From: a virus
Virus record (IMG/VR): IMGVR_UViG_3300023117_000984
Coordinates: 1 to 36,168 of that record
Strand: one strand, 5' to 3'
DNA length: 36,168 nucleotides
Under the pieces are notes generated by a model. It was not told the origin of the DNA, searched no databases, and was given only the letters and a program-made list of their open reading frames with translations. How positions within the stretch are numbered: the first letter of the stretch is position 1; the number at the start of each line of letters is the position of its first letter. Positions 1 through 17,588 of this stretch are shown here, in pieces. Made by a program: the position numbers and the translations under genes.

Positions 1-630
1 TAATTTTTGTGTACGCTCATTTAGTTTTACTGTTAAAATAAGACTATACAAGTTATCACTAAAACTAAACACACTATGATCTAATTGGAAGTTTGTGAAG
101 TAAACATACCCTGCTTCTGGATATAAAGGTTTACCGTCAACTAACTGTACATAATTCTCAGGACTGCATCTGCCAAATACTACTAATAGTCTAAAGTATT
201 CTGGACTAGTTCCGTGAAAATCTCTATGTGGTGGGAAAAATCCACCTTGATCAATACGTAATAAATGTACACGCCCGATGTCTGGCGAAAATATATCTAC
301 TAGTTTTGCAATTTCAGGAATTTTATTATACACTTCTGTAGGTGTATTAAAGTTTTCTTCCTTCATTTCAACATTGTGATATTTTTGCATATGGCCAAAA
401 CTATTAAGATGATAATTGTCCATTACATCACCTGAATGACTAGTTACAGGTAATCCCCAACGATTATTATGCTTGTCTTTTTTAACATTATAAGGACACC
501 AGTTATTTTTAAACTGTTCTAACTGCTGTTCAACAGCATGATGATCAATATGCCATTTGAGTTTTACTTGGTTACCTAGATTAACTAGGCTTTGCCAACG
601 CAACGCTCTTTCTATTTCATTTTGATCCAT
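1..630 (-). CDS. 2OG-Fe(II)/aspartyl hydroxylase-like protein, partial (C-terminus outside window)
   Basis: The frame is open from the ATG at 630 to the left edge, giving 210 codons with no stop, so the C-terminus is missing. The protein has a double-stranded beta-helix iron-site pattern: H135-x-D137 in a GGFFPPHRD context and a distal His at 185 (DHSVF). This matches the HxD...H facial triad of 2-oxoglutarate/Fe(II) oxygenases, most like the aspartyl/asparaginyl beta-hydroxylase group. I do not see a clear 2OG-binding Arg after H185. Its ATG lies 14 nt inside the end of the next upstream gene, whose product has the same kind of motif, so the two are tandem relatives and probably translationally coupled. 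Substrate is unknown; in this neighbourhood a protein side chain or a sugar is possible. Oxygenase class is fairly secure, hydroxylation of a protein is inference. Confidence 0.72.
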   Translation of the reverse strand, partial: MDQNEIERALRWQSLVNLGNQVKLKWHIDHHAVEQQLEQFKNNWCPYNVKKDKHNNRWGLPVTSHSGDVMDNYHLNSFGHMQKYHNVEMKEENFNTPTEVYNKIPEIAKLVDIFSPDIGRVHLLRIDQGGFFPPHRDFHGTSPEYFRLLVVFGRCSPENYVQLVDGKPLYPEAGYVYFTNFQLDHSVFSFSDNLYSLILTVKLNERTQKL

Positions 631-1258
631 TATATTCCTTTCCGTAACTGTCGCAAACTAGTTGCATAACACCGCTCCAATCATCAATTGGTTCGCTGTG
701 TATAATTATATGTATCCTTGGTTCATTACTTTTGTTCATAACCTGGTGCATACTTCCTAAATCAATTAGTCTTGCTTCGCCTTCTTGCCATTCTACATTA
801 CCATAATTTTCAATATCAAATATTGTACCTTCTGGATGCGTTATAGCAACATTAATACCGGCTAACAGTTGTCCATTTGGATAGTCTTTATGCGGACTAA
901 TATGCCCACCCGGGTCAACTATCATTATTCTTACCCTACCGTACTTTTTAAAAGGTATATTCTCAGTAATCCATTTTTTAGTTAAAGGAAAATACTTTGC
1001 AACATCAGTCCAAGTTTTTTCTCCTAACATAAATCCCTTTTCTTTGTATGCTTGATCACTGTCGGTCATTGTTGAACTATGACCGTGTAGTGTTAAACTA
1101 CGCCACCCTTTACCATAATCTTCTCTATGTGGTACTGCAAGATGTAAACTTTGCAATATTTCTTCTCGCATAGCACCGCTTGGCTTTGGTACATCTAATC
1201 GTAATGTAGCAAGTCCGCTTTCATGTCTAATCCAATTAAACTGTTCGACTAGATCCAT
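617..1258 (-). CDS. aspartyl/asparaginyl beta-hydroxylase-like 2OG-Fe(II) oxygenase
   Basis: A complete 213-residue protein. A cupin-type iron site is visible: H123-x-D125 (SPHKD), then H171 (SMHQV) and, ten residues on, R181 (EPRIHI), the usual position of the 2OG carboxylate-binding Arg. The segment RIMIVDPGGHISPHKD is typical of the Asp/Asn beta-hydroxylase family; members oxidise side chains with O2 and 2-oxoglutarate. No signal peptide or membrane segment, so it should be cytosolic. The start ATG at 1258 overlaps the end of the upstream gene by 10 nt and its own end overlaps the following hydroxylase-like gene by 14 nt. It sits in an operon with radical SAM, methyltransferase and glycosyltransferase genes, which suggests a role in modifying a virion or cell-surface component, but the substrate is not known. 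Confidence 0.8.
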   Translation of the reverse strand: MDLVEQFNWIRHESGLATLRLDVPKPSGAMREEILQSLHLAVPHREDYGKGWRSLTLHGHSSTMTDSDQAYKEKGFMLGEKTWTDVAKYFPLTKKWITENIPFKKYGRVRIMIVDPGGHISPHKDYPNGQLLAGINVAITHPEGTIFDIENYGNVEWQEGEARLIDLGSMHQVMNKSNEPRIHIIIHSEPIDDWSGVMQLVCDSYGKEYNGSK

Positions 1259-1932
1259 GGTAACACCTTAAACTTATCATCAAGTTTCATATCAACTAGT
1301 TCTCTAGCAGGGGCTTGGAAATATATACCGTTAACAGTACACATATCAACATACCATTCAATTTTATCTTCTGCTAGTACTTGCATTAATTTATTTTGCC
1401 TTGTTAGTCTTGCTTTTGCATCAAACATAATACAATTAGGCAAATATAAAAATATATTACTTAAACAAAATAATCCTGTTTCACCTTTGCACTTACGCAA
1501 AAACTTACGCACTTCTTCTAAATCAAACACATCAAGTTCGTAATATTCTGTTGATGTCATATTAAATGCTTTTTGATGATTTTGTAAAGCCTTAGGACTA
1601 ATATCAATAACATACATATACTTAGATTCAATTTGATCTACAGTATTGCCACTTGCTAATACAACAGCACAGTCTGGTTTTAAATCTGTTTTAAGTGTTT
1701 GTTCTGTATTTTTTCTAAAGTAAACATTATAATTTAATAAACTATTTAAAATAGCCATATCCTTAACTGTATATTTTTCTTCAAGAAAAATTGTACCAAT
1801 TGGTGTGCCTTCTGTTTTAGAATATGAAATATCTCCCTGACAATTTCCTGTGTGAAATTCAGTAATATTTCTTGCTATATTGTTTAGACTATTATTTTTA
1901 TAGTCTACTTCTTTCCACGTAATATTATTCAT
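1249..1932 (-). CDS. putative class I SAM-methyltransferase-like protein
   Basis: A 227-residue protein when started at the ATG at 1932. A longer frame reaches 1989, but that would overlap the upstream gene by 65 nt, and 1932 gives the 8-nt overlap typical of this operon. The middle looks like a Rossmann methyltransferase: a hydrophobic strand ending in a small-residue loop (CAVVLASGN, about 88-96, in place of the classical GxGxG), an acidic strand end (VIDIS, about 108-112), LDVFD at 133-137 and a further strand (LFCLSNIF, 154-161). The glycine loop is degenerate, so the activity is uncertain; it could be a divergent methyltransferase or an inactive fold relative. It lies between a small fibre-like gene and the tandem hydroxylases, all on the same transcript. 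Confidence 0.5.
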   Translation of the reverse strand: MNNITWKEVDYKNNSLNNIARNITEFHTGNCQGDISYSKTEGTPIGTIFLEEKYTVKDMAILNSLLNYNVYFRKNTEQTLKTDLKPDCAVVLASGNTVDQIESKYMYVIDISPKALQNHQKAFNMTSTEYYELDVFDLEEVRKFLRKCKGETGLFCLSNIFLYLPNCIMFDAKARLTRQNKLMQVLAEDKIEWYVDMCTVNGIYFQAPARELVDMKLDDKFKVLPWI

Positions 1933-2512
1933 TTTCAATTTTATATAACGGCATTGCAAACTTTTTGCCATCATATTCCACTTCAACATACTTTTCTACA
2001 AGACCTATGTGCCACGAATCAATAGTATTATCTGTTATAGTTAAATTGCCACTAGTAATATTTCCATGTGTAATTAAATTTCCTTTACTATCAAGTTTTA
2101 ATCTAGCACTCATATCGTCATTGTCAGATAACGCTATAATCATTTCAGTAGCAACTGCACCTTGTTTATTATAATCGTCTGCTACAAAAAATTGGATAGC
2201 GCCTGTTAACGGACTTTCACTATGACAGTAACCTAAACTATTGCCTGGTTTAGTTCTTGCGTAAACTTGAAACCCACCCAATGTATCACCTGCTTCAACT
2301 GGCAGTTTGTTAGTTTGATCTCCACGCGATTTAGAAAGTCCAATAAAGATAGGCGACTTTCCATCTGTAGCACCGTCAAGATATAATAACTGTTCGTTAG
2401 CACTTGAACGTACAACCAAGTGTCCGTTTTCTGTGTCTGTACCAATTATAGTTTGTTTGTGTAGTTCATTTGGGTCAATATCATCGCAAACAATTTTAAA
2501 TCCTACTTCCAT
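1925..2512 (-). CDS. small tail-fibre-like protein inside the enzyme operon
   Basis: A 195-residue protein that resembles the distal part of the phage fibres further right rather than an enzyme. It has fibre-style phrases such as ENGHLVVRSSANEQLLYLDG, then LKLDSKGNLITHGNITSGN, the repeat style of trimeric beta-structured tail fibres, and a short polar C-terminus rich in Glu and Lys. No catalytic motif, signal peptide or membrane helix is seen. It overlaps the radical SAM gene upstream by 10 nt (ATGGAAGTAG junction) and the methyltransferase-like gene downstream by 8 nt. Because it sits alone among modifying enzymes, it could be a dedicated substrate or a minor fibre/decoration protein. Structural character is inferred from composition and repeats; the substrate idea is speculative. 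Confidence 0.55.
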   Translation of the reverse strand: MEVGFKIVCDDIDPNELHKQTIIGTDTENGHLVVRSSANEQLLYLDGATDGKSPIFIGLSKSRGDQTNKLPVEAGDTLGGFQVYARTKPGNSLGYCHSESPLTGAIQFFVADDYNKQGAVATEMIIALSDNDDMSARLKLDSKGNLITHGNITSGNLTITDNTIDSWHIGLVEKYVEVEYDGKKFAMPLYKIENE

Positions 2513-3825
2513 AATGCCTCCAGTTCAGGAAACACATCAGTTAAATTTTGTTCCCTAGTATTGTCATTGATTTTTAAATACTCTTTCATTGCAGGAAGTT
2601 TATGACTCCAGTCCTCTGAATTCATATAATCTACAAGACCAAACCAACGTTGTCTACCATATGGATTCATTGCAAATTCCATATCACGTTGAAAACTAGT
2701 AGCAAAAGTTTCTAGTTTGATTGTTATTTCTTTTTTAAGTTCTTTAGGTAATACTCTTACATTTAGATGACTTGGCAAGTATACCAAATGCAATCCTATA
2801 AGTCCTGCACCGTATGGTGCTTTGTTAATTTTTTTAAATTTTTGTGCTAACTTCCATTCAGCAAGATCTGTAACACGATAAATGTTTAATGCTTGAACTG
2901 CACACGCAATATTAACTGTAATATTATCTGATGTTTCATCTAGCAGTTTTAGATTCTTTTCTATAGTTTCAAACTTACTAGGGTATCTAATATAATCATT
3001 TTGTTCGCCTATTGCATCTAAACTAAAATTAAATTTTACTTCTTTAAACTGTTCCCATAATGCTATTAACTTTTCGCTTATTTCTGTACCATTTGAATTA
3101 TAACGTAAAATACAGTTCTTTGCGTGACCTTCTGCAACCATAAACTCTAGTATAGCATAATGCTCCGGAATCATTAAAGGTTCGCCACCGGCAAAATACA
3201 ATTCTTTAATATGCTGTGCTTGATTTTTCATCGTATCAAGGAAACTGCCTTTCTTATACCAAGTATAATCATATGAACTATCCCAGTCTTGATCTTTAAG
3301 TAACAAAGGATCTTTATACTGCGGATATTGTAGTTTCCAATCTTTAATCCAACTTGAACTGTCATGTGGTGAACACATTACACATTTTAAATTACACATA
3401 TTACCTAAACGTAAATCAAAATAAGGAATGTTTACAGGCAAACTTCCATCAAACTGTGTTTGTGATACAATACTATCAATGTCTAAACGTCTGTTCCATA
3501 CTTCTGTTTCCCAATTACGTTTACTCTTGATACCCTTTGCTTCTTCTTCAAAACACTTACGACAACTTTCAGGTACTTTATTGTTTAACATCTGTAGTCT
3601 TGTTCTACGCATATGATCACTATTCCAAACTTCTTCAATAGTATGATCACGAACATTCATAGCAATTCCATCTTTCTTTACAAGACCTGCTGTTTTATCA
3701 TCATCTTCACCCGCACCACTAGCATTAGCAGTACAACACACACGCACATCGCCGTTAGGACGAGTTGCTAAATGTATCCACGGTAACGGACAAAACTTAT
3801 CTGAATTGTTCTTTGAATACGTCAT
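2503..3825 (-). CDS. radical SAM protein with N-terminal twitch/SPASM-like domain (A)
   Basis: About 440 residues from the ATG at 3825 (an in-frame GTG lies three codons upstream; the ATG has GGAA just before it). Radical SAM enzymes use a 4Fe-4S cluster to cleave S-adenosylmethionine. The cluster motif is C144-x3-C148-x2-C151 (CNLKCVMC), followed by GGEP at about 213-216. Unusually, the auxiliary-cluster cysteines come first: C12 in CPLPW, C30/C31 and a CxxC at 88-91, preceding the core. This is the arrangement of the family annotated as twitch domain-containing radical SAM proteins in bacteria and marine phages. The C-terminus ends with VFPEL, shared with the proteins at 12733-14100 and 11568-12746. 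It overlaps the small fibre-like gene. The substrate is unknown. Confidence 0.85.
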   Translation of the reverse strand: MTYSKNNSDKFCPLPWIHLATRPNGDVRVCCTANASGAGEDDDKTAGLVKKDGIAMNVRDHTIEEVWNSDHMRRTRLQMLNNKVPESCRKCFEEEAKGIKSKRNWETEVWNRRLDIDSIVSQTQFDGSLPVNIPYFDLRLGNMCNLKCVMCSPHDSSSWIKDWKLQYPQYKDPLLLKDQDWDSSYDYTWYKKGSFLDTMKNQAQHIKELYFAGGEPLMIPEHYAILEFMVAEGHAKNCILRYNSNGTEISEKLIALWEQFKEVKFNFSLDAIGEQNDYIRYPSKFETIEKNLKLLDETSDNITVNIACAVQALNIYRVTDLAEWKLAQKFKKINKAPYGAGLIGLHLVYLPSHLNVRVLPKELKKEITIKLETFATSFQRDMEFAMNPYGRQRWFGLVDYMNSEDWSHKLPAMKEYLKINDNTREQNLTDVFPELEALWK

Positions 3826-4783
3826 ATGTTCCACATTGTTTTTTACATTCTTTTAAAGGATTAGTTTTCCAACCCTGTTCTATTTTATTAAAGAAGTTTG
3901 AAGAAAAGATTTCTTGCATAGTATTACTATGCAAATTAGGATAATTTCCAAAATGATTCATAAAATCAATTCTACTTGTCGATGTTGGTTGTATGTAATC
4001 ATGATCTAACCAACAACAAGGAAGTAAGTTTCCATTGGCACCTATGTAAATTGCACGTTCTTCTTTTACTTTACATTTAATTGTGCAAATTTCTTCTGAT
4101 GCTTTTACTTCTTTAATTTTTTCTTTATGTTTTACACTCTTTTCTGTTGGGTAAAGTGTATCAACTTGTTTTCCTGTTTTATCTAATACAGGTAATACGT
4201 CATCTCTAAATCTACTTGTGTTTTTACTGTAAAACTCTTTGAAGCCAATAGTATCTGCTAATTCTTTACACGCTTCTTTTTGATGTGCATTATGACTAAA
4301 AATTAACATATCCCAAATAGCATATCCGCCAGCATTGATAAATGATTTTGCATTTTCTATAATTTTATTCCAGTCTGTACCAATACGATATTTACTGTGT
4401 GTATCTTCTAATCCATCAATACCAAAACGAACACGCACATTTAAATTAGCAAGATCTTTAAACCATTCTGTATTCCTAGCACTACCGTTTGTATTCATGC
4501 TTAAACTAATCGATGGATTTGTTTCACGTAAATATTGAAATATTTCAAGTGTGTCATTTGCAATAATAGGATCGCCGAAATTACCACACATATACAAACG
4601 ATCTAGTTGACGTACAATGTTTCTTGGAATCCAATTTACAAATGTTCCTAGATCAACTTCGTTTAGTTTAAGGAAAGGATTTAACGGACCGCCTTGTAAA
4701 TTTCTAGCACACATAGGACAAGAGGCTTGGCACTTTGACGTTACTTCTAAATGTATCGCTCTAATGTCTTCTATATTATACAC
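3797..4783 (-). CDS. radical SAM/SPASM domain protein (B)
   Basis: A 328-residue radical SAM protein in the normal domain order. The SAM-cleaving cluster motif is C18-x3-C22-x2-C25 (CQASCPMC) near the N-terminus. A SPASM-type auxiliary cluster region follows at the C-terminus, with C233, C237, C256/C257 (GNLLPCCW) and C313/C317. SPASM enzymes typically modify peptides or proteins, though other substrates are known. The start is a GTG at 4783: the upstream gene ends as GTGTATAA across it and no in-frame ATG lies nearby. It overlaps the next radical SAM gene (A) by 29 nt. Together with A and the enzyme at 5686-6666 it makes three radical SAM genes within about 4 kb. Confidence 0.86.
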   Translation of the reverse strand: MYNIEDIRAIHLEVTSKCQASCPMCARNLQGGPLNPFLKLNEVDLGTFVNWIPRNIVRQLDRLYMCGNFGDPIIANDTLEIFQYLRETNPSISLSMNTNGSARNTEWFKDLANLNVRVRFGIDGLEDTHSKYRIGTDWNKIIENAKSFINAGGYAIWDMLIFSHNAHQKEACKELADTIGFKEFYSKNTSRFRDDVLPVLDKTGKQVDTLYPTEKSVKHKEKIKEVKASEEICTIKCKVKEERAIYIGANGNLLPCCWLDHDYIQPTSTSRIDFMNHFGNYPNLHSNTMQEIFSSNFFNKIEQGWKTNPLKECKKQCGTYDVFKEQFR

Positions 4784-5378
4784 GTTTCTTACCTATAATC
4801 ATAAATCTATTATACTTATCGAGCCTAAGTGTTGCACCAGTAAAAACTTTTATTTTAGATTTATCTGAAAAGTTCATTAAATCCTTTGAACAGTTAATAT
4901 GCTCATCTAACTCATCATAGTCATTACTTTGTAAAACTATAGTAGCATTTTGTGGAACATTGCTTAACCATTGCTCGTACTGTTCTTGTGTAATATGTTC
5001 GCAACTTGTATTAATGACAATATCTGCTTCATACTTATAATCACACATATCTGCTGTAACTGATTTAAAACGTCCTTCCATCTCTTGACGTTTGTTCATT
5101 GTACTAGCAATTTGTTCGCACTCTGAATCTATATCTACCGAAGTAATATGTTCAACATTAATATCGCTATTGAATATCATACTTGCTAACACACCGTTCC
5201 ACCCTCCGTGTATTACAATTCTATTTTTGCTAGGCAATGCTGATTGTTCTAGTTGTTCTATTAACCAACGTTTACTACGCAACTGTCCTTTCCAAAAACT
5301 TTCAAGTGTGCGATACTTGTCTTCGCTATTGCGTATAGCGTCCATCCAAAACATAATATCATCTAATTCAATTTTCAT
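4776..5378 (-). CDS. class I SAM-dependent methyltransferase
   Basis: A 200-residue protein with a recognisable class I methyltransferase layout. There is a SAM-binding loop after the first strand (RIVIHGGWNGVLAS, about 53-66), acidic strand end VDID at 81-84, TAD at 108-110, and a motif IV-like stretch INTSCEHI at about 122-129. Proteins with the NTSCEH signature are common small methyltransferases in phages; the acceptor is not predictable from the sequence. It starts at ATG 5378 in a 4-nt ATGA overlap with the membrane-protein gene and its end overlaps the GTG of radical SAM gene B by 8 nt, so it is tightly co-expressed with the radical SAM enzymes. Confidence 0.75.
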   Translation of the reverse strand: MKIELDDIMFWMDAIRNSEDKYRTLESFWKGQLRSKRWLIEQLEQSALPSKNRIVIHGGWNGVLASMIFNSDINVEHITSVDIDSECEQIASTMNKRQEMEGRFKSVTADMCDYKYEADIVINTSCEHITQEQYEQWLSNVPQNATIVLQSNDYDELDEHINCSKDLMNFSDKSKIKVFTGATLRLDKYNRFMIIGKKRV

Positions 5379-5689
5379 AATTCATTTACCAGTTGATCAA
5401 ATAATTCTTCGCCTAATATGTAATACAATGATACAACTACAAATATAAACCATAATAACCAAAACACATAATAGCCTAACTTTGTCCAACCTAAACCTAA
5501 TACCTTATATACTTTTTTCATAGGAAAATATTTTTCAAATAATGTAGTAATATCCCATACAAATTTAAGCATGAATATCCACATAAATGCTCTAACGTAT
5601 TTGTTCTTTATATCAGAAACTTTAAAATTTGCTTGTGCTTCTTTTACTTTTTTATCATGCGCCTTGAGGCGTTCCCATAACTTCTTCAT
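5375..5689 (-). CDS. small two-helix membrane protein of unknown function
   Basis: A 104-residue protein with a basic, amphipathic N-terminus (about 1-30, rich in Lys) followed by two hydrophobic segments, about 32-51 and 71-92, separated by a short basic loop. This predicts an inner-membrane protein with both ends probably cytoplasmic by the positive-inside rule. No family is recognised. It is bracketed by ATGA overlaps: its ATG overlaps the end of the radical SAM gene upstream and its stop overlaps the methyltransferase start. It may tether part of the modification machinery to the membrane, or be an unrelated membrane effector; this is inference from position only. It is too long and its helices are in the wrong place for a typical simple holin, although that cannot be ruled out. 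Confidence 0.6.
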   Translation of the reverse strand: MKKLWERLKAHDKKVKEAQANFKVSDIKNKYVRAFMWIFMLKFVWDITTLFEKYFPMKKVYKVLGLGWTKLGYYVFWLLWFIFVVVSLYYILGEELFDQLVNEL

Positions 5690-6666
5690 AGTTTTACCTT
5701 TGGTATTTTGTTATCTGCACTACTAACACAAGTATCAGTAACGCATTTAGATGGTGTCTTAAACAGCGTAAAACCGTGTGTAAGTGTACCTAATGGTTCG
5801 TCACTACAACTATATGCCCTCTTAACTTCATTACCACGTATAATACAACTTTGATATCCTGCATTACAGTTCCACCCTTTAAACTTATTAAATCCAAAAG
5901 CATTAAACCGTTCTGCTTGATCTATTTCGTATTTTATTCCATCATTTGTTTCGAGGCGAACTTGTGCGACTTCTTCTCCGTCGATTTCTTGCGGGAATCC
6001 TGTTTGTAATTTTTCCAGTTGATCATCTGTATAACCAGAGACCACAAATGACGCAGTAGGATCTGATTGCGGCTTGAGTGTGACATGAATTCCCCTTTCA
6101 TTTAATCTTGCACATCTATCGTAATATTCGTTAAAGTGTTCTGGAACCATAACTTGATTAACTGTTACAAGTGTATTATTTTCCATAAGCATTAAACACT
6201 TATCACCAAATTCTTTTTCGTCAGCAAACTCTGCATGATAACTTGCTGTTAAACTTCTTCTATCCATAACAAAGGTTTTATCTAACCAACGCATCCACCA
6301 TGACTTGTTAGGAGATAGATTAGTTGTCATGTGAATACTTAAATATGGACTTTTAAAATCTTCATAGTATTGAATTAGTTCAAGTAGGTGTTTGTATGCT
6401 GTTGGTTCACCACCACTAAAACTAAAATGAAATTTGCTAAATCCGTTATCATTTGCTTGGCGTTTAATTTCATCTATTGTATGTTTATATGTCTGCAAAC
6501 TAAAGTGATCTGGTTTGTCTGTATTAGCATAAGGCCAGCAGTAACTACATTTGTAATTACAAAATCTTCCTAGTATCCAACTAACAGAAAACACGCCTTC
6601 GTCAAGCATTGTTTTTTGACCAAAGCGTGTAATCTTGTCAAATGGAATTTTTTGAAAATTGCTCAT
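5686..6666 (-). CDS. radical SAM protein with C-terminal SPASM-like cysteines (C)
   Basis: A 326-residue radical SAM protein. The catalytic cluster motif is C36-x3-C40-x2-C43 (CNYKCSYC) and the GGEP motif is at about 85-88 in FSFSGGEP. A set of C-terminal cysteines (C267, C274, C287, C308, C313) resembles a SPASM auxiliary-cluster region, with GWNCNAGYQSC the clearest part. It differs from proteins A, D and E, which carry their extra cysteines at the N-terminus, and is a separate branch. It starts at ATG 6666, 29 nt inside the upstream glycosyltransferase gene. The reaction and substrate are unknown; SPASM relatives often act on peptides or sugars. Confidence 0.85.
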   Translation of the reverse strand: MSNFQKIPFDKITRFGQKTMLDEGVFSVSWILGRFCNYKCSYCWPYANTDKPDHFSLQTYKHTIDEIKRQANDNGFSKFHFSFSGGEPTAYKHLLELIQYYEDFKSPYLSIHMTTNLSPNKSWWMRWLDKTFVMDRRSLTASYHAEFADEKEFGDKCLMLMENNTLVTVNQVMVPEHFNEYYDRCARLNERGIHVTLKPQSDPTASFVVSGYTDDQLEKLQTGFPQEIDGEEVAQVRLETNDGIKYEIDQAERFNAFGFNKFKGWNCNAGYQSCIIRGNEVKRAYSCSDEPLGTLTHGFTLFKTPSKCVTDTCVSSADNKIPKVKL

Positions 6667-9391: not shown

Positions 9392-9397
9392 ACTATT

Positions 9398-9401
9398 CTC
9401 C
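9398..9401 (-). promoter_or_regulatory. ribosome binding site deciding the GTG start of the dehydrogenase
   Basis: GGAG on the minus strand, six bases before the GTG at 9391. No ATG in frame lies close by, and the Rossmann motif begins two codons after this start, so this site fixes it. Confidence 0.7.
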
Positions 9402-9417
9402 GTTAATTAAGTACGCA

Positions 9418-9425
9418 TATAAATA
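9418..9425 (+). promoter_or_regulatory. T4-type late promoter (TATAAATA), plus strand
   Basis: A perfect TATAAATA box, the consensus -10 element recognised by T4 sigma factor gp55 with its co-activators. It lies 26 bases before the ATG at 9452, so a transcript starting about six bases downstream would have a leader near 20 nt. Being in the short divergent gap, it is well placed to drive the two-gene plus-strand islet. Confidence 0.75.
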
Positions 9426-9430
9426 CATAG

Positions 9431-9438
9431 TATTTATT
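9431..9438 (-). promoter_or_regulatory. T4-type late promoter (AATAAATA), minus strand
   Basis: On the minus strand the bases read AATAAATA, fitting the relaxed NATAAATA late box of marine T4-like phages. It lies about 40 bases before the GTG at 9391 and would start the left-hand operon. It is only five bases from the plus-strand TATAAATA, so each promoter's start site should fall in or beside the other's box. Confidence 0.6.
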
Positions 9439-9451
9439 GGAACCCAGAAAC

Positions 9452-10720: not shown

Positions 10721-11573
10721 TAAACCAAAAAGAATCTTTACATTTGGTTGTAGTTTTACTTCATATATTTGGGGTACTTGGGCAAATGTTATCGGAGCAG
10801 AATTTCCTGAGGCTGAGTTTAGAAACTTTGGTCGTTCGGGTGCAGGTAATCATTATATTTTTAATTCGCTAATGCAGGCAGATGCTGTATATAATTTTAC
10901 ACACGAAGACCTAGTTATTGTACAATGGACTAATGTTTGTAGAGAGGATAGATATCTTCCTCAACGTGACGGTTGGCTTGTGCCGGGTAACATTTACACA
11001 CAAGGCGAGTATGACGAAAAGTGGGTGCAAACTTGGTTTAGTGAGTATGGTGCTTACGTTAGAGATTTTGCATTCATCTATGCGGCAAACGAACATCTAA
11101 AACATAAAACACAATTTCATTTCTTGCAAATGATGAAAATTGTTGACTACACCGATCAATGGAACTTAAACAGACGCACACAACATCATGATAAAATTAA
11201 AAAACTAGCAGACATCTACAGACCAGTTCTTGAAACTATACAGCCTAGTTTTTACGAAGTTCTTTGGAACAACGATATTCAAAAGAAATTTAAACAAGAT
11301 AGAAAAACTGTAAACAAAGATTTTCAAGACGGTCATCCTCATATAGTTGAATATTACAATTATCTCAAAGCAGTTTTTAAACATAACTGGCGTGACGAAA
11401 CCGATGCCGCAGTAGCCGAAAGTTTTAAAAAGTGGGTTACAATGATGAACGGTGCAAGTAAAGGTGTTCCAAAGTTTCATATTTACAGTTCAGGACAAAG
11501 ATTTGTTGATAGTTGTAACTATGAACTTAGATTGCGTCAATCAGATCAATTAGAACCAATCTTGCATTTATAA
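10698..11573 (+). CDS. SGNH-hydrolase-like protein
   Basis: A 291-residue protein with SGNH-type blocks: FGCSFT at 16-21 (Ser19 as nucleophile), NFGRSGAGN at 43-51 (Gly/Asn oxyanion blocks), VQWTN at 75-79, and DGHPH at 211-215 supplying the Asp/His pair. The GCSFT and DxHP pattern is common in phage-encoded SGNH proteins that sit with glycosyltransferases. It is a diverged second SGNH protein in the window; the other is at 7314-8222 and uses GDSN. It begins inside the end of the putative glycosyltransferase gene and ends overlapping the convergent radical SAM gene by 6 bp. A carbohydrate esterase or acyl-transfer role is inferred. Confidence 0.65.
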   Translation: MAKQLIHNKPKRIFTFGCSFTSYIWGTWANVIGAEFPEAEFRNFGRSGAGNHYIFNSLMQADAVYNFTHEDLVIVQWTNVCREDRYLPQRDGWLVPGNIYTQGEYDEKWVQTWFSEYGAYVRDFAFIYAANEHLKHKTQFHFLQMMKIVDYTDQWNLNRRTQHHDKIKKLADIYRPVLETIQPSFYEVLWNNDIQKKFKQDRKTVNKDFQDGHPHIVEYYNYLKAVFKHNWRDETDAAVAESFKKWVTMMNGASKGVPKFHIYSSGQRFVDSCNYELRLRQSDQLEPILHL

Positions 11574-12746
11574 TAATTCAGGAAAAGTTTCAGCAAAACT
11601 TCTTTTACGTATTTGATCGTAGTAAGAATTTTTGTTTGCCCATATAGCATTATGGTCTGGATTATATTCTACATTGCTAATATACTTTAACACACTATTA
11701 ATAGTTTCTTTGTGTTCTCTATTAGTTATTTTATTGTAATATTCTTCTAAACGTTGTTTTGCGTGTTGTAGTTTTTCTGTTGGTACTGCTGAAACACTAT
11801 AATGTACAGGATCAACAAGATTATATAAAGTACAACTGTTTACGTCAAATCCATTATCTGTCATATATTCTAAAAAGTCTACAAGTGTAACAATATTAAA
11901 TGCACTTACTACTGCATTAAAACTCATAATTACGTGAGGACATTCTTTTTTAATAAAATTAAGATTCTCAATAATCTTATTCCAGTCAGTTCCTTCTCTA
12001 ATGTATTCTGCTTTAGAACCATAATGATCTAAACTTGCTCTTACTTGTACTTTTTTAAATTGTTTCCAGTAATCTGTTACAAGTTTACCTTTATAAGTTA
12101 GGTTACTTAAATTAGTATTGTATTGTAATATTGCATCTGTTTTATTTTCAGCAATTAAATAATCTAAAATTTCGTAATGCTTATCTGTTACTAACGGTTC
12201 GCCACCTGCAAAATAAAAATCTTCAATATCTTTTAAATATGGCTTAAACTGTTCAAACAAACTGTCATTAGAATCTCCTCCTGCAAATGTATATACAGGA
12301 ACGTTCTTTCCGTTCGCATTATCTTCTATTGCCCAACTTGAACTGTATGTTGCACTACACGTTCTACATTTAAAATTACAAATATTACTCCAGCGTACAT
12401 CAAAGTAAAGTAATTTCATTACGTCTAAACTGCCGTCTTGATTAGTTAGTTCACGCACACCTAAATGCTTAGAAAACTTTTTATTATTTTCTTTTCTAAA
12501 ACTCCAAACATCACTTGCTTCATGTGCCCAGCATTGCGAACATTCGTTTGGTTGTTCACCATTTAGTAATGCAAGACGTAACTTTTTGTATGCTTCGCTA
12601 TTCCAAATTTCTTTAATAGTATTATGTTTAGTATTTCCTAAAGGTTTGTCCCACTTACCAATACAACAAGGTAACACATTGCCATCTGGATTGACATACA
12701 TATGGCTCCAGGGTAATATACAAAATGTATCTTTACTTGTACTCAT
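11568..12746 (-). CDS. radical SAM protein with N-terminal twitch/SPASM-like domain (E)
   Basis: A 392-residue paralogue of the proteins at 2503-3825 and 12733-14100. The N-terminal twitch-like region has C9 in CILPW, C27/C28 (GNVLPCC) and CxxC at 69-72. The SAM-cleaving cluster motif is C123-x3-C127-x2-C130 (CNFKCRTC), followed by SSSW and FAGGEP ending at 184. The C-terminus ends in a shortened FPEL tail. It is the last gene of accessory operon 1, starting 14 nt inside the preceding radical SAM gene, and ends tail-to-tail against the plus-strand SGNH gene. Of the three twitch-type proteins it is closest to A in the blocks FCxLPW, RxxNxCNxKCxxC and YFAGGEPL. The substrate is unknown. Confidence 0.84.
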   Translation of the reverse strand: MSTSKDTFCILPWSHMYVNPDGNVLPCCIGKWDKPLGNTKHNTIKEIWNSEAYKKLRLALLNGEQPNECSQCWAHEASDVWSFRKENNKKFSKHLGVRELTNQDGSLDVMKLLYFDVRWSNICNFKCRTCSATYSSSWAIEDNANGKNVPVYTFAGGDSNDSLFEQFKPYLKDIEDFYFAGGEPLVTDKHYEILDYLIAENKTDAILQYNTNLSNLTYKGKLVTDYWKQFKKVQVRASLDHYGSKAEYIREGTDWNKIIENLNFIKKECPHVIMSFNAVVSAFNIVTLVDFLEYMTDNGFDVNSCTLYNLVDPVHYSVSAVPTEKLQHAKQRLEEYYNKITNREHKETINSVLKYISNVEYNPDHNAIWANKNSYYDQIRKRSFAETFPELL

Positions 12747-14100
12747 TATAAAATTGCTCTAATTCTGGAAATACACTAACAAGATTAGTTCCGCGTCTAC
12801 GATCGTATTCTGTAAACCAACGTGAGAAATCTCTACGTGCTTGTTCTAGTTTTTCAGGTTCATAATTAGTAGTTGCCATATAGTCTACAACACGTCTAAA
12901 CTTTTCATATTCTAAACTACTAAACTTTGTGTTGTCATTATCATCTTTAAAACGCTCTATTAAATCTAAATGGTCTTGCATATATGGCATAAACTTTTCT
13001 TTAGGTAAAATATTCATGTCAAAGATTGTAGGTTCTTTTAAATGTGGAGTATCAAATCTAATACGTTGCCATTGTGTTGCATTTTCATTATTATATTTTA
13101 CACGCCATTCTAAAATCTTTGATAATAGCAAACTAAAACTTGTAACAGCAAATAAATTAAATGTAATCATAAATGTTACAGGAAAGTTTGTATTAGTTAG
13201 ATAGTAATCTAAGTTCTTTTCCCATAGTTCAATATCTAAACCAGTACGTGTATATTCTGCACGTTCGCCCCAAGTATCTATACTTGTATAAAGTTTAAAA
13301 CTTTTAATACAATTCTTTTCTTTTAGTGTGTTAATACGTTCTACAAGTTTTTCTACTAGTTTAGTTTTAACACCCATATTGCTGTTTACTTCGATTTGAA
13401 TATGTGGCTTAGGATCTGCTTCCAACTCGTCGAAAAGTCTCCAAGTACTCTTGTGCATTAAAGGCTCACCTCCCGTAATTCTCAAAATATTAAGAGTCTT
13501 GGAGACTTCCGGCCACCAATCCCACCATGCTTTCACATAGGGGTTTGATTCTTCATTGTCATATAACTCAAACCAGTCAATGTCTTGCCTATGTGCTGTT
13601 GACATTTTATATGGTCCGTGTTCTTTAATCTCATTATAGTATCTACTGCTAAACTTAGGATGGCAATAACCGCATTTAAAATTACACTCATTACTAAAGT
13701 TAATCTCAATATACTCCGGATTTATGTTAAAATCCGCCCCTTTTTGTTTTATTTCCGTAATTCTTTCGGGTCTATAGATACTCGTAGTTTTGATATGTCT
13801 ATCACTAACAAAGTCTTTGCCCATTGCTTCGATCTTCCAGCAATAGTTACAACCTTCTGGCTTTTGTCCACATAACATCTGCTTACGTTGTTCTTTTTTC
13901 TCTTTAGTGTTATGCAATGCACTTGGATTATCTTTTAATTCTTCTAATGGTATAGGGTGCGGAGCAGGATGATAACAACTATGTGTTTCACCTGTTTGTA
14001 AATAGATAGTAGTATGATGCCACTTTGCTAAACAAAAAGTAGGAGATGTTTCCTCTTCTACTATCGGCATTATTTCTTTAATTTTATCTAGTTCGCTCAT
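12733..14100 (-). CDS. radical SAM protein with N-terminal twitch/SPASM-like domain (D)
   Basis: A 455-residue radical SAM protein, longest of the five. The N-terminal auxiliary-cluster region has C23 (FCLAKW), C42 (HSCYHP), C77 and CxxC at 84-87. The core motif is C139-x3-C143-x2-C146 (CNFKCGYC), followed by SSRYY and GGEP at about 210-213. The C-terminus has RRGTNLVSVFPEL, the tail signature of the twitch-type family. FCLAKW...SCYHP differs from the CxLPW...CC pattern in A and E and may mark a different auxiliary cluster or substrate. It starts in an ATGA overlap with the glycosyltransferase gene before it and overlaps radical SAM gene E by 14 nt. Confidence 0.85.
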   Translation of the reverse strand: MSELDKIKEIMPIVEEETSPTFCLAKWHHTTIYLQTGETHSCYHPAPHPIPLEELKDNPSALHNTKEKKEQRKQMLCGQKPEGCNYCWKIEAMGKDFVSDRHIKTTSIYRPERITEIKQKGADFNINPEYIEINFSNECNFKCGYCHPKFSSRYYNEIKEHGPYKMSTAHRQDIDWFELYDNEESNPYVKAWWDWWPEVSKTLNILRITGGEPLMHKSTWRLFDELEADPKPHIQIEVNSNMGVKTKLVEKLVERINTLKEKNCIKSFKLYTSIDTWGERAEYTRTGLDIELWEKNLDYYLTNTNFPVTFMITFNLFAVTSFSLLLSKILEWRVKYNNENATQWQRIRFDTPHLKEPTIFDMNILPKEKFMPYMQDHLDLIERFKDDNDNTKFSSLEYEKFRRVVDYMATTNYEPEKLEQARRDFSRWFTEYDRRRGTNLVSVFPELEQFYNEYK

Positions 14101-14984
14101 CTAATAACTCTAGGAGTGTTTTCATAAACTGCTTTAAACATTTTACTTTGTCCAGCATCGAAAGGTTTTGGACTAATCGGCAGTCCTGCTTCTCCTAATT
14201 TTGCTCCTAGTTCTTCCATTGATTCATCTAATGCCCAAGCATCCTTATCTTTTTCTTTTTCCCACATCTCATTTAAGATTTTAAAGTCTCTAGTTTGTGA
14301 AATGTCCCAATCTGTACAATATGCTAGATGACATCCTTGCCTTGCACCGTACACTGACCAAATTCCGTTAGTAACATCTGCACCAACGTTCATCCAAATT
14401 AACAATCTTTGGTAATTTTGCCACCAAATGTCTTTGCTAAGATCAGAAACTCTTGCACCTCTGTTTAAACTCATCTTAACACCTTCACGGAATCCTGCTC
14501 TCCATGCTTGATGCGGTGTTGAACTAATAATACTAGTGCTATAGTTTTCGTTTAATTGGTAATAGTTGTCAAAATAACAAAATTCAATATTTGTATCATC
14601 ATTGCCGTCGGTGTTTTCATGTGTTTTCATATTTTTAACGAATTCTTTAGTCCACATTTTTAAACTGCCGTTGCCGTATTTTAATCCGTTAACATCGATG
14701 TGTCCACACCAACTAAATTGATAATCATCATCAACGCCCATTACGTCTAAATCTAAAACTACATTTAAAAATTCCGGATCTACAATAGTATCTCCGTCAA
14801 CTGTTACAAAGTGTTTTGTTTCTGACAAATCTGCACAGGCTTTATGTGCGGCATCTGAACCGTGTACTCCGTGAACACGTTTTGCCCAAGGAATTTTTTT
14901 GCATAAATCAACATAATTCTTTTCGCAGTTAGGTTCATCGTAACTTAAGAATATAATATCTTGCTCTGCAATGTTAATCTTCAT
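14097..14984 (-). CDS. putative GT-A type glycosyltransferase (DGD motif), paralogue
   Basis: A 295-residue protein with the acidic triplet D63-G-D65 in FVTVDGDTIV after KRVHGVHGSDAAH, clearly homologous to the product at 6638-7321 but with a longer C-terminus. Shared blocks include FLSYDEPN against FISWQEPN, HQAWRAGFREGVK against FNTWKSAFRECVK, and YGARQG against DGARRG. Such a shared block order supports a common GT-A-like enzyme family in both minus-strand operons. The extra C-terminal region (about 235-295) has no recognisable motif. It is coupled by ATGA overlaps to the unknown gene before it and to radical SAM gene D after it. Donor and acceptor are unknown. Confidence 0.65.
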   Translation of the reverse strand: MKINIAEQDIIFLSYDEPNCEKNYVDLCKKIPWAKRVHGVHGSDAAHKACADLSETKHFVTVDGDTIVDPEFLNVVLDLDVMGVDDDYQFSWCGHIDVNGLKYGNGSLKMWTKEFVKNMKTHENTDGNDDTNIEFCYFDNYYQLNENYSTSIISSTPHQAWRAGFREGVKMSLNRGARVSDLSKDIWWQNYQRLLIWMNVGADVTNGIWSVYGARQGCHLAYCTDWDISQTRDFKILNEMWEKEKDKDAWALDESMEELGAKLGEAGLPISPKPFDAGQSKMFKAVYENTPRVIR

Positions 14985-15574
14985 TTAATTACCTCGTACA
15001 TATACTTGTCAAATCTTTTAATTGTATAAATGCCAATTGGTTCGTTATCAAATTCAAATTTACTATCAAATGGCAATACAATGTACTTACCGTCAACTAA
15101 ATCTTCAAAGTTAAAAGAGATTGTTTTGTACAAAATGTTTGGATCGTTTTTCTTTGTAATTGAAAAAAACATAATTTGTTTAAAACTTACTTTTTGAGCA
15201 AGTATGTTTGCTTTTAAATCTCCGCCAATACTAAATTTCCAACACGTATCTTTTACATTTTTAGTAATACGTATATCTGCGTCTTTAATTTGTTCTTCTT
15301 TTACTTCATATATAAGATCATCAACATAGTAACTATCAATATCAAAGTTGTTCCTAGTTCTTAACTGGTATTCTTTTTTAGTTTTGTTATAATGTACATA
15401 ATAATATGACATTGGTTCTGTACCATTAACAATACTAGATACCTCTTTTTCTTCTACTGGAATATAACTTCCTTCTTTTGGTTGTGAATTAGTAACACTA
15501 ATCAAGTCACCATTTGTAGGATTAAAGATAGCATATCTTTTATCAATAACAACAGGAGGTCTCATTGTAATCAT
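14981..15574 (-). CDS. conserved-looking protein of unknown function
   Basis: A 197-residue protein, not recognised. It is rich in short beta-prone stretches and has no obvious catalytic motif, no signal peptide and no membrane helix. The N-terminal half has IFNPTNGDLISVTNSQPKEG-like phrasing reminiscent of phage virion accessory proteins, and the C-terminal half alternates hydrophobic and charged residues. The start ATG at 15574 overlaps the upstream stop as ATGA; a second ATG three codons later, after AGGAGG-like bases on the minus strand, cannot be excluded. It is enclosed by glycosyltransferase genes, so it may be an acceptor, a binding partner or an unrelated structural protein. Confidence 0.5.
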   Translation of the reverse strand: MITMRPPVVIDKRYAIFNPTNGDLISVTNSQPKEGSYIPVEEKEVSSIVNGTEPMSYYYVHYNKTKKEYQLRTRNNFDIDSYYVDDLIYEVKEEQIKDADIRITKNVKDTCWKFSIGGDLKANILAQKVSFKQIMFFSITKKNDPNILYKTISFNFEDLVDGKYIVLPFDSKFEFDNEPIGIYTIKRFDKYMYEVIK

Positions 15575-16407
15575 AGTTTTAACACTCTTTCATACTTTGA
15601 AATCTTATCTTTTGATGCAAACGTTTTTTCAGTATAATGAAAAATGCCTGTTTGAGCATGATTTCCTATTTTTAATTTAAGGTCATCTGTTAGATAACTA
15701 CCAACTCTACTTTGCCAAGTAGCACTTGGATTGTACCAACCTTGTATTCTAGGCTTCATGTGTGTAAAACTTGGTATGGTTGCTTTCTTATTAGTAATCT
15801 TTTCTTCACAGTCTAGTATCTTTGCAACAATAGCCGCACTTAAATCTACTGATAGTGATTTCTGATATAGTTCTTTAGCATATTTTCCATAAAATAGTTC
15901 CCAGTTATTCATAACTAGTTCTAACCAAGTATAAAATTCTTTTGCAAAATCACTCTTTTTAAAGTAATGAAACCCTGCATATAAGTTTGGCAGTTCGTTA
16001 GCAATAAAAGTTTTACGATAATAGTTATCTACTACTTCATCTCCTCTATAAGTAAACACCTTGCTTACAAAATATAGGTCATAATTACTTAAAAAGTTCC
16101 ACCAACTTTCTAAATCTTGCAATACAACCATGTCTGTGTCCATTACAATAGTTTCATCATACGGACTAGCATGATAAATTTTCCATCTATTCTGTACTTT
16201 CCACTCTGCTTCTATTGCACTATCTTCCCAGGGGATTTCTTTTATACAATCAAACAGTGATACATATTTTTCAGGAACTTCGTCATTGGTAATTAGGCAA
16301 ATTTTAGGATCTTTTTGTGTAGCGTGTAAACTCATTGCTAACAAACAAGCCTGTTTTACATAATCGTCTTCACTGTTTTGTGCAATGAATACAAATCCTT
16401 TACTCAT
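15571..16407 (-). CDS. GT-A type glycosyltransferase, tandem paralogue 2
   Basis: A 278-residue protein started at the ATG at 16407, which lies in an ATGAGTAA overlap with the preceding gene. It begins MSKGFVFIAQNS and carries the nucleotide-sugar-binding triplet D90-T-D92 in YDETIVMDTDMVV, with LQDLESWW after it, resembling GT8-like transferases. A later region has TKYF-like and HMKPRIQGWYNPS phrasing. It is a tandem paralogue of the gene before it: both start MSKG, share the YDET...DxD block and the same overlap sequence. Acceptor is unknown. It lies between the paralogue and the unknown 197-residue protein. Confidence 0.7.
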   Translation of the reverse strand: MSKGFVFIAQNSEDDYVKQACLLAMSLHATQKDPKICLITNDEVPEKYVSLFDCIKEIPWEDSAIEAEWKVQNRWKIYHASPYDETIVMDTDMVVLQDLESWWNFLSNYDLYFVSKVFTYRGDEVVDNYYRKTFIANELPNLYAGFHYFKKSDFAKEFYTWLELVMNNWELFYGKYAKELYQKSLSVDLSAAIVAKILDCEEKITNKKATIPSFTHMKPRIQGWYNPSATWQSRVGSYLTDDLKLKIGNHAQTGIFHYTEKTFASKDKISKYERVLKL

Positions 16408-17245
16408 TATCAATAATCCTTGTTAAACTAAACTTGTTCATAACGTGTACATTACTACCTTTAATCCTTAAAGGCGTATATTCTCCTAAATGGTCTTTCT
16501 TTTCGATTAAGAACAAAAAGTTTTCTTTATCAAGTTCCCATAGAATATCTCTATCAGTAGTAAAATACTTTGTTCCTGGCAGAGGTGTTGCAAAGTCTCC
16601 ATGTTGATAACCATTCATAATATGAATAGCAATACTAAACACCCAATCGTTGCGAAATGTTCCTTTATTAATTTGAAATATACTGTTATAGTGTTGCCAA
16701 TTTTCTTGAATATGCTTTGTTAAGTTAAAATATGTTTCTACTTCTTTGCACTTTTTAAAATAAACTACTGTTGCCCAATAAAAGTCAACACTTGTTTCGC
16801 TAATATTTTTAAATTCTGCTACTTCTCTAAAACCTGACAAATCTTTTGCATCTTTGTATATTTGAAAATTGTGGTCTGATGTAAAACACTCTTTAAATAA
16901 ATCGTTAGCAATAATATAATCGCTATCCAACATTAATGTTTCGTCATATGGTGTTAGATCGTATGCTTGTGTTCTTAGGTCGTTTTTAAATTCTAAGTTT
17001 TTAAAGACATTACTTCCGTCATAATATCTTTTGTTACTAATACCTTGTTGAAAAGGCACTTCAATTACTTTATCCCACACTTCTTGGTAATCAGGATACG
17101 CCGAATGCAAGTATTCAATACTGTCTGTAACAATACTTGTAGGTATACCTAAATATGTTTTAATACGTTTTGCTAAAAAGTGTGCTTGTTTGATGTAATC
17201 TATTTGAGCATTGTTTCTAGCAAAAATTAATGCTCCTTTACTCAT
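16400..17245 (-). CDS. GT-A type glycosyltransferase, tandem paralogue 1
   Basis: A 281-residue protein starting at the ATG at 17245 in an ATGAGTAA overlap with the small gene before it. It begins MSKGALIFARNN, has a YIKQAHFLAKRI helix, and the acidic triplet D107-S-D109 in YDETLMLDSDYII, the metal/nucleotide-sugar site of GT-A enzymes, followed by NDLF. The C-terminal region includes VHVMNKFSL. Both this protein and its downstream paralogue share start, motif position and overall length, so they arose by tandem duplication. Neither has a membrane segment. Likely cytosolic sugar transferases; donor and acceptor unknown. Confidence 0.7.
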   Translation of the reverse strand: MSKGALIFARNNAQIDYIKQAHFLAKRIKTYLGIPTSIVTDSIEYLHSAYPDYQEVWDKVIEVPFQQGISNKRYYDGSNVFKNLEFKNDLRTQAYDLTPYDETLMLDSDYIIANDLFKECFTSDHNFQIYKDAKDLSGFREVAEFKNISETSVDFYWATVVYFKKCKEVETYFNLTKHIQENWQHYNSIFQINKGTFRNDWVFSIAIHIMNGYQHGDFATPLPGTKYFTTDRDILWELDKENFLFLIEKKDHLGEYTPLRIKGSNVHVMNKFSLTRIIDNE

Positions 17246-17588
17246 ACTCTACAAGTCCAGATACTTTCCTGTTAGTTCTAATTTTTTCGTATTCTGTGTG
17301 ATATTCGTTAGTTGCTGTAAAATAAATGTCTAATGCTTCGCTATAAAAGTCATCAATTTTTTCAATACGTACAGGAATATCATTATCGTCAATTAACACA
17401 ACGTTTTCTTGACCCGACTGTACCAACATATTACAAAAGTTTAGTAGTTCTTTTGTTACACTAAATTGTCCACCATTAAAATAATAGACGTTTGTTTCAT
17501 AGAACTTTTCTTTTGCTACTCTTTTTTGGTTATTTAGGGTAGTCATATAATTGGCAAAGTCTAATGCTTTTTCTAATCGTTCGTCCAT
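17238..17588 (-). CDS. conserved-looking small phage protein of unknown function
   Basis: A 116-residue acidic protein with predicted helices at both ends. It has phrases ALDFANYMTTLNNQK near 9-23, YYFNGGQFSVTKEL in the middle, VVLIDDNDIPVRIEKIDDF around 62-80, and a C-terminus ending EKIRTNRKVSGLVEYE. I associate these phrases with a conserved hypothetical protein of marine T4-like phages, but I know no function. The start ATG at 17588 has AAAGGAGAT just before it. It is the first gene after the virion block and first under the promoter at 17606-17634, and its end couples to the first glycosyltransferase. Confidence 0.65.
   Translation of the reverse strand: MDERLEKALDFANYMTTLNNQKRVAKEKFYETNVYYFNGGQFSVTKELLNFCNMLVQSGQENVVLIDDNDIPVRIEKIDDFYSEALDIYFTATNEYHTEYEKIRTNRKVSGLVEYE

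Follow-up and report, generated by a model that had tools for sequence, protein, structure and literature searches.

Gene content of the island

We analysed a 36,168-base stretch of viral DNA, IMG/VR record IMGVR_UViG_3300023117_000984 (G000; hereafter the window), and in it an island of glycosyltransferase-like and radical S-adenosylmethionine (SAM) genes downstream of tail-fibre genes. The window equals bases 29,454–65,621 of a parent IMG/VR record of 184,930 bases (G001, from locus L006) at 36,158 of 36,168 positions. This parent encodes a T4-type major capsid protein gp23 (PF07068), Sinorhizobium phage Phosso (71%) and Vibrio phage 2.275.O (70%) rank highest among the phage records compared with it, and it is a T4-like phage, a large uncultured virus of bacteria. 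Host labels on phage pieces in metagenome-assembled genomes are conflicting. The principal genes of the island are listed below in window coordinates.

17238..17588, minus strand: h17238, small conserved protein that opens the constant head
16400..17245, minus strand: GT16400, GT8-like glycosyltransferase of the constant head, DxD invariant
15571..16413, minus strand: GT15571, GT8-like glycosyltransferase of the constant head, DxD invariant; phrog_1903, function unknown
14981..15574, minus strand: fib14981, beta-rich protein that fits no known family, flanked by constant glycosyltransferases; candidate acceptor
14097..14984, minus strand: GT14097, glycosyltransferase-like (GT-A type) protein of the constant head, DxD invariant
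12733..14100, minus strand: rSAM5, N-terminal-twitch radical SAM protein, NF033640 322 bits
11568..12746, minus strand: rSAM4, N-terminal-twitch radical SAM protein, NF033640 371 bits
9437..10720, plus strand: ORF9437, glycosyltransferase-like protein, start probably at an internal ATG
8219..9391, minus strand: UGD, UDP-glucose/NDP-sugar dehydrogenase, PF03721 and PF00984; phrog_9148 at E 1.7e-98
6638..7330, minus strand: GT6638, glycosyltransferase-like (GT-A type) protein, DxD invariant
5686..6666, minus strand: rSAM3, radical SAM protein of no named NCBIfam family, PF04055
3797..4783, minus strand: rSAM2, radical SAM/SPASM protein, PF04055 and PF13186 above cut-off
2503..3834, minus strand: rSAM1, N-terminal-twitch radical SAM protein, NF033640 423 bits

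With longest-open reading frame (ORF) calls, 19 of the 20 neighbouring gene pairs overlap, as the first-pass annotation of this DNA had said of nearly all frames, and the exception is a 45-bp gap at 9392–9436. Three features go beyond that annotation, namely the conserved 14981–15574 protein of no known family, the late promoters, and three radical SAM genes past the left edge of the window.

Its five radical SAM proteins downstream of the tail fibres were confirmed, since five window proteins match PF04055 with no internal stops and CxxxCxxC is intact in each. Four clear the 29.5-bit cut-off outright, and rSAM5 clears it only when same-frame neighbouring matches are summed (31.2 bits; 28.0 in another scan). 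GGEP is present in four of the five and not in the SPASM protein rSAM2, and rSAM2 and rSAM3 are not NF033640 members (62 and 36 bits versus a cut-off of 170 bits). Across the parent record CxxxCxxC occurs in 9 of the 113 ORFs of at least 200 aa, and eight of these nine are radical SAM genes; chance is therefore excluded. The eight PF04055 matches of the parent all lie at 23.3–43.2 kb, with none elsewhere in the record, and the eight genes lie within one 20-kb stretch that continues past the left edge of the window, beyond which three of them lie. Moreover, a PF04055 match was found in all 23 related records searched (21 above cut-off), and in one related locus rSAM5 and rSAM4 are fused into a single 862-aa protein with both CxxxCxxC motifs present (L026:4990-7578). 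A role in iron–sulphur (Fe-S) supply was considered and set aside: only 3 of the 23 related records, mostly fragments, yielded an A-type carrier (PF01521), which is therefore no evident constant partner.

In 15 aligned rSAM5 sequences the invariant residues include C139, C143 and C146, together with C23, C42, C84 and C87, which may be ligands of an N-terminal auxiliary cluster. The AlphaFold2 model of rSAM5 (pLDDT 86.5, pTM 0.87) gave top Z scores in a PDB fold search to SkfB (13.6), BlsE (13.5), anSME (12.8) and viperin (12.4). The model thus fits enzymes that make ribosomally synthesized and post-translationally modified peptides (RiPPs), formylglycine enzymes, sugar-nucleoside enzymes and viperin-type enzymes about equally, so that the radical step could fall on a sugar or on a peptide; the near-equal Z scores gave no separation, and fold search was abandoned as a way to tell a sugar-acting from a peptide-acting rSAM5. 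A profile of rSAM5 matched MoaA chains among solved structures (best E 2.6e-5).

The DxD motif is invariant across 20 aligned sequences for GT15571 and GT16400, and across 16 sequences for GT6638 and GT14097, whose GT2 matches are weak. GT15571 and GT16400 have no Pfam match to PF01501 (GT family 8) and are therefore called GT8-like only. ORF9437 has no Pfam match above cut-off and no PDB match, and its C-terminal pattern is one that we take to be GT10-like; profile searches of solved structures with the GT-A-type family, with ORF9437 and with the SGNH-like protein at 10698–11573 (SGNH10698) returned nothing at E 1. Hence the four or five glycosyltransferases of the first-pass annotation have motif support (DxD and the presumed GT10-like pattern), and none of the five in the window clears a Pfam cut-off; its nucleotide-sugar dehydrogenase was borne out by PF03721 and PF00984.

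Constant head, variable cargo and late-promoter motifs

The island begins with a constant head (h17238, GT16400, GT15571, fib14981, GT14097), which is followed by variable cargo. We collected the 80 nearest of at least 584 relatives of h17238, one of which (L310) has no callable h17238, and 61 of the remaining 79 loci have at least 8 kb downstream; collapsing identical h17238 proteins left 39 distinct loci, in which GT16400 and GT15571 share one cluster. GT16400, GT15571, GT14097 and at least one radical SAM gene are present in all 61, fib14981 in 60 and an rSAM5-type gene in 59. Loci selected by rSAM5 with enough flank (n = 51) gave a similar composition: GT15571, GT14097 and GT6638 in 51, GT16400 in 50, fib14981 in 48, rSAM3 in 41, rSAM2 in 33, UGD in 31, ORF9437 in 28 and rSAM4 in 26, where best-hit assignment undercounts the paralogues rSAM4 and rSAM1. 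The closest UGD-selected relatives on viral contigs share the gene order (e.g. L006, L009, L011, L014, L017 and L021). Failure of the genes to co-occur in related phages had been named beforehand as grounds for dropping the proposal; they recur in fixed order, apart from loci with UGD alone (10 of 80). Rough dN/dS ratios (nonsynonymous to synonymous substitution rates; Nei-Gojobori, synonymous sites near saturation) were 0.06–0.33 against two relatives, with one gene omitted per comparison because dS was not computable, and on these ratios the island genes are under purifying selection.

Across the 39 distinct loci, the mean Jaccard index of gene content is 0.81 at 0–2.8 kb after h17238 versus 0.29 at 2.8–7.5 kb, a stretch in which 28 families were counted. 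Sugar-nucleotide cargo in this stretch, each type in one or two of the 39 loci, comprises an NDP-sugar dehydratase/epimerase type (PF16363/PF01370), a DegT aminotransferase fragment (PF01041) and a DAHP-synthase type (PF00793) that we read as KDO8P synthase; the cargo further includes 2-oxoglutarate (2OG) oxygenase-type and AMP-binding-type proteins, and UGD lies farther downstream in most loci that possess it. NDP-sugar genes and motif-level glycosyltransferases with variable content, as looked for in an exported-polysaccharide locus, are thus present, and a fixed head with variable cargo has the appearance of variable glycan loci.

An ORF lies between GT15571 and GT14097 in all 12 loci viewed, and in 6 of the 12 it has no BLAST match to fib14981. 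Most of these ORFs have recognizable termini, with YDPxTG on the N-terminal side and NDPN and SVYT towards the C terminus, and an alignment of 17 fib14981-type sequences has only three invariant columns. The AlphaFold2 model of fib14981 (pLDDT 81.5, pTM 0.55) has three matches in BFVD at E 0.001, to uncharacterized or unnamed viral proteins. An enlarged fib14981-type protein of 445 aa with similar ends was seen at L064:977-2314 and L078:2806-4143, and a second, shorter gene that reads as NDP-sugar-dehydrogenase-like stands between GT15571 and fib14981 at L026:2187-2972 and L031:2658-3434.

Late-promoter motifs in the window stand as follows.

24944..24951, minus strand: AATAAATA, before the 24312–24926 gene
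20448..20455, minus strand: GATAAATA, 22 nt before the tail-fibre gene 18938–20425, whose run continues into the island
9431..9438, minus strand: AATAAATA, before UGD
9418..9425, plus strand: TATAAATA, before ORF9437

In the parent record 29 of the 43 ATAAATA sites lie 5–60 nt before a same-strand gene start, a range that takes in 2.8% of positions, and for five permuted 7-mers the corresponding figures were 3–10 of 64–116. TATAAATA occurs once in the window, where 6.2 occurrences are expected, and that one is in the gap that separates the divergent genes UGD and ORF9437; in the parent it occurs 7 times versus 26 expected from a Markov model, five of these copies being no more than 50 nt ahead of a gene start, and the late-promoter word seems to be avoided elsewhere in that record. 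NATAAATA points towards ORF9437 in all 16 distinct homologous spacers kept by the script, several of them from near relatives, and another copy points towards UGD in 15 of the 16. Two of the six NATAAATA sites of the window (25069–25076 and 33894–33901) are inside a giant ORF and mark no gene start. This open frame, of at least 3,739 aa, spans 24947–36166 and runs off the right edge. Sigma-70 promoter-like sites were at chance level (84 found versus 87 expected). The motif therefore stands just before gene starts, as in a T4-type late operon, and predicted T4-type late promoters precede both halves of the island and are conserved in the divergent spacer. By analogy with T4, whose late promoters form the background of this reading, the island is probably expressed late.

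Membrane proteins were counted with a simple hydropathy scan. ORFs with at least four transmembrane-like segments numbered 0 of 1,624 and 0 of 1,191 in two sets of viral loci and 86 of 1,136 in cellular control loci, and the only such protein in the parent record, with four segments, is at 171.9 kb, outside the island. The flippase, polymerase, ligase and ATP-binding cassette (ABC) exporter of an exported-polysaccharide locus thus have no polytopic candidate in the viral loci scanned, which sets them apart from bacterial O-antigen loci. RiPP recognition through PqqD (PF05402) was likewise rejected, with matches in 0 of 23 viral records, mostly fragments, and in 4 of 4 bacterial positive-control genomes; other recognition domains are possible.

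The remaining genes of the island and those just upstream of it are as follows.

18938..20425, minus strand: tail-fibre-type structural gene upstream of the island, function from sequence reading; homologues in the same place in related loci
17638..18528, minus strand: h17638, structural-type protein upstream of the island, function from sequence reading
10698..11573, plus strand: SGNH10698, SGNH-like protein, GCS block and D-x-H-P invariant in 14 sequences
7314..8222, minus strand: SGNH-like protein, GDS and D-x-x-H present
5375..5689, minus strand: small membrane-type protein (sequence reading), matched in 11 of 80 UGD-selected loci
4776..5378, minus strand: methyltransferase-like protein, PF13649 at E 0.0032, under cut-off
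1925..2512, minus strand: fib1925, fibre-like protein (sequence reading), matched in 6 of 80 UGD-selected loci
1249..1989, minus strand: possible methyltransferase (sequence reading), no credible family match
617..1258, minus strand: Asp/Asn beta-hydroxylase-type (AspH) 2OG oxygenase, PF05118 at E 1.7e-13
1..630, minus strand: protein read from its sequence as 2OG-oxygenase-like, truncated at the window edge; matches no family

The pairs of accessory enzymes proposed in the first-pass annotation held up in part. Both SGNH proteins carry motifs, with D-x-H-P in place of the usual D-x-x-H in SGNH10698, and neither has a family match above cut-off; of the one or two methyltransferases, the first has its weak match to PF13649 and the second no credible one; and of the two 2OG-oxygenase-like proteins PF05118 supports that at 617–1258, the other having no family match.

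The left extension of the island (parent 14.8–29.4 kb; L086:14763-20000 and L087:1-9430) holds a Trp-halogenase-type gene, four AspH-type oxygenases, an AMP-binding gene, the three further radical SAM genes and, judged from their sequences, three beta-propeller-like proteins. Next to the other fibre genes is another set of glycan type (L092:1522-19739, parent about 121–140 kb), with a carbamoyltransferase, a methyltransferase, a PfkB+cytidylyltransferase (HldE-type) protein, an epimerase, a cupin and a NUDIX protein. FolE-like and QueE-like genes, possibly of a 7-deazaguanine pathway, were read at L086:3567-5334 of the parent; the QueE-like protein (4.4–5.3 kb) has C-x3-C without CxxxCxxC and is outside the eight PF04055 matches.

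Relatives in other phages and in bacteria

Among 50,697 phage records, GT6638, GT14097, GT15571 and h17238 had no match, the only matches to rSAM5, at 25.7%, were in Vibrio phages K566 and K567, and rSAM1 had 24–25% matches in six records, five of them Vibrio phages. UGD matched 31 phage records and was dropped as a marker of the island because it is not specific; its matches include Synechococcus phage Bellamy (58.6%) and Pelagibacter phage HTVC008M (50.4%), where the gene is in another cassette. In Vibrio phage K566 (OZ196521.1, L340:4093-13560) four twitch-type radical SAM genes are interleaved with two PF01501 glycosyltransferases. However, these radical SAM proteins are ∼25% identical to rSAM5, two of the four are below the NF033640 cut-off, and the phage has no match for h17238, GT15571, GT14097 or GT6638. 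Thus the pairing of such radical SAM proteins with GT8-type enzymes recurs in a distant phage. The K566 cluster also has a weak GT4-like protein, and several of its genes are annotated as hypothetical. Three radical SAM genes are annotated at 135–145 kb in the record of another phage, QD01, which infects Vibrio natriegens Vmax.

Bacterial relatives of rSAM5 are about 34–42% identical over near full length and mostly carry Bdellovibrionota labels. Six of 77 genome-contig loci were set aside as phage pieces (L102, L103, L133, L137, L164 and L173; L102 by identity alone), and a few loci kept as cellular, e.g. L178, may be phage. Around such a gene in 70 bacterial loci, ABC ATPases (some of them not Wzt-like) were counted in 20 loci, ABC-2 permeases in 15, PqqD in 8 and S74 in 8. 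In one of them, L113 (about 9.1–11.3 kb), a GT6638-type gene with 41% identity directly precedes the rSAM5 relative. The Bdellovibrionota NF033640 proteins thus resemble those of the island in being near full-length relatives, often in tandem; they differ in being chromosomal, with ABC-2 permease, PqqD or S74 genes in some loci, and those loci that we retained as cellular have neither UGD nor the constant head. A tree interleaves bacterial and phage NF033640 sequences, with a support of 0.43 for the main phage clade, and recent capture from Bdellovibrionota was rejected, the groups being interleaved but the deep supports weak.

In the Bdellovibrionota-type loci L166, L169, L175 and L177 the rSAM5 relative adjoins PqqD and a small stand-alone S74 chaperone-type gene, and the S74 proteins of L166, L169, L177 and L150 have in common an N-terminal segment, possibly a leader; this S74 scan used a few motif strings and gives no count. 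Phage-like S74 fibre proteins serve prey contact in Bdellovibrio, according to the part of that report available (PMC10769870), and this contact may be tied to these radical SAM enzymes.

Interpretation and comparison with known systems

Our preferred reading, to which we give an even chance, is that a late-expressed island of a T4-like phage builds, and then tailors, a variable glycan on a virion protein of the fibre region. Head enzymes would glycosylate fib14981 or a neighbouring fibre protein in the cytosol late in infection, UGD would supply UDP-uronate, and cargo glycosyltransferases would extend the chain. The twitch/SPASM radical SAM enzymes may then alter the chain by radical chemistry, i.e. 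by dehydrogenation, epimerization or cross-linking of a sugar or of the carrying peptide, and cargo swapping would vary the coat between related phages in a serotype-like manner. The island combines a fixed head including an acceptor-like protein, variable cargo, late motifs and soluble enzymes, which suggests that a virion protein is glycosylated in the cytosol and tailored in a strain-specific way; we also count in its favour the rSAM5–rSAM4 fusion, the radical SAM/PF01501 cluster of K566, the GT6638-type neighbour in L113 and the dN/dS ratios. The first-pass annotation had proposed a coordinated system that builds or decorates a glycan or glycopeptide on the fibres or on the host surface, for example to block superinfection. 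Sugar-nucleotide genes in the variable cargo support its glycan part; late promoters, together with the missing export-type membrane proteins, make the virion a likelier target than the host surface, and the superinfection example is less likely on that account. A bolder version, in which radical SAM enzymes of a virion serotype locus tailor the glycan or its carrying peptide on fib14981 as a dedicated virion acceptor, and in which the twitch family has been exchanged with fibre-bearing predatory bacteria, is doubtful. If true, it would be to our knowledge the first radical chemistry on a virus's adhesion apparatus.

Several points weigh against glycosylation of the virion. The identity of the acceptor and all of the chemistry, products included, are conjectural; fib14981 is a virion protein by candidacy only, and its model, searched against the PDB at E 0.001, matched nothing and shows no recognized fold. 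The glycosyltransferase calls of the window rest on motifs, and the membrane-protein counts come from a hydropathy scan. The percentages for the h17238-anchored set hold for close relatives, the loci being the nearest ones; moreover, 2 of its 61 loci have the head without rSAM5, and 10 of the 80 UGD-selected loci have UGD as their sole assigned window gene. The TATAAATA copy that stands ahead of the K566 cluster's opening gene may be accidental, since at least one copy turned up in 77 of 200 shuffles. Enzymes of the host lipopolysaccharide (LPS) core would also agree with late expression and with soluble proteins.

That last point belongs to the strongest rival, remodelling of the host surface, in which the island would alter the LPS core or a lipid-linked glycan so as to block other phages or re-adsorption of progeny. 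We consider it unlikely. The family PF05118 presumably also takes in lipid A hydroxylases, the parent phage has the HldE-type protein and an epimerase, and a Wzm-like ABC-2 permease gene is near cellular rSAM5 relatives in 15 loci; host-surface action is argued for phage glycan clusters in the available parts of two reports (PMC7029224; PMC7824862). However, the late-promoter motifs and the location within the fibre region speak against it, as do the scanned loci, in which no membrane protein resembled an exporter, flippase or polymerase, and the fixed head, one of whose members is a phage protein without a known family. The radical SAM enzymes could instead cross-link or oxidize a fibre-like protein directly, with glycosylation as a separate matter, which we find distinctly improbable: the match of the rSAM5 model to the RiPP maturase SkfB (Z 13.6) and to anSME (Z 12.8), and the PqqD and S74 neighbours in some Bdellovibrionota loci, agree with it, but BlsE, which we take to act on a sugar nucleoside, ties at Z 13.5, and PqqD was matched in none of the 23 viral records, most of which are fragments.

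A small secreted molecule or glycopeptide for the infected cell, of the kind proposed for cyanophage halogenase clusters (PMC7824862, as far as available), would draw on the Trp-halogenase-type, AMP-binding and four AspH-type genes of the parent beyond the window. It is very improbable given the fixed link to fibre genes, the late-promoter motifs and an island in which the hydropathy scan found no polytopic exporter. Phage glycosyltransferases can also act on DNA, and FolE- and QueE-like genes were read elsewhere in the parent, so that hypermodification of DNA by glycosyltransferases and radical SAM enzymes may be imagined; with the fibre location, late-promoter motifs, UGD and sugar-nucleotide cargo against it, we regard it as hardly credible.

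Parts of this composition are in print, as seen in the available portions of the papers cited here. Tasman Sea phages carry radical SAM and glycosyltransferase genes (PMC7150976), Baltic viruses an ahbD-type radical SAM gene (PMC9301287), and a single radical SAM gene stands beside queuosine-type genes in another case (PMC10783043); cyanophages with 2OG, halogenase and LPS genes are known (PMC3037559), and VirX1 is a cyanophage halogenase (PMC8407142). The composition, which the first-pass annotation held to be undescribed, is therefore less unprecedented than it supposed, with radical SAM cassettes beside glycosyltransferases already reported (PMC7029224; PMC5332604). In the open PubMed Central papers searched, mostly at the level of listings, no description was seen of the constant head, of the late promoters or of a function of the radical SAM set.

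The cyanophage clusters with halogenase, 2OG and carbamoyltransferase genes (PMC7824862) resemble the island in their sugar and amino-acid tailoring genes, and halogenase and 2OG genes adjoin the island in the parent record; they differ in that ‘radical SAM’ is absent from the main text of that paper, so far as it was available. Environmental T4-like marine genomes with up to 12 radical SAM genes have been discussed in terms of Fe-S metabolism (PMC5332604), and they share with the parent the many radical SAM genes in one genome, whereas here all eight are in one glycan-type island. Closest are the host-recognition clusters of pelagimyophages, hypervariable islands by the tail-fibre genes of T4-like marine phages, which contain glycosyltransferases and radical SAM cassettes and have UDP-glucose dehydrogenase listed among their LPS-type genes; in the available part of that paper the radical SAM cassettes are noted, but no constant head, late promoters, fib14981-type protein or radical SAM function (PMC7029224). 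The island ties radical SAM genes of marine phages to a proposed late-promoter, fibre-linked and serotype-like glycan system, and a candidate acceptor, together with the analogous cluster of the named Vibrio phage K566, makes their role testable. If the preferred reading is true, radical chemistry would join virion glycosylation, suggesting how large marine phages vary their surface.

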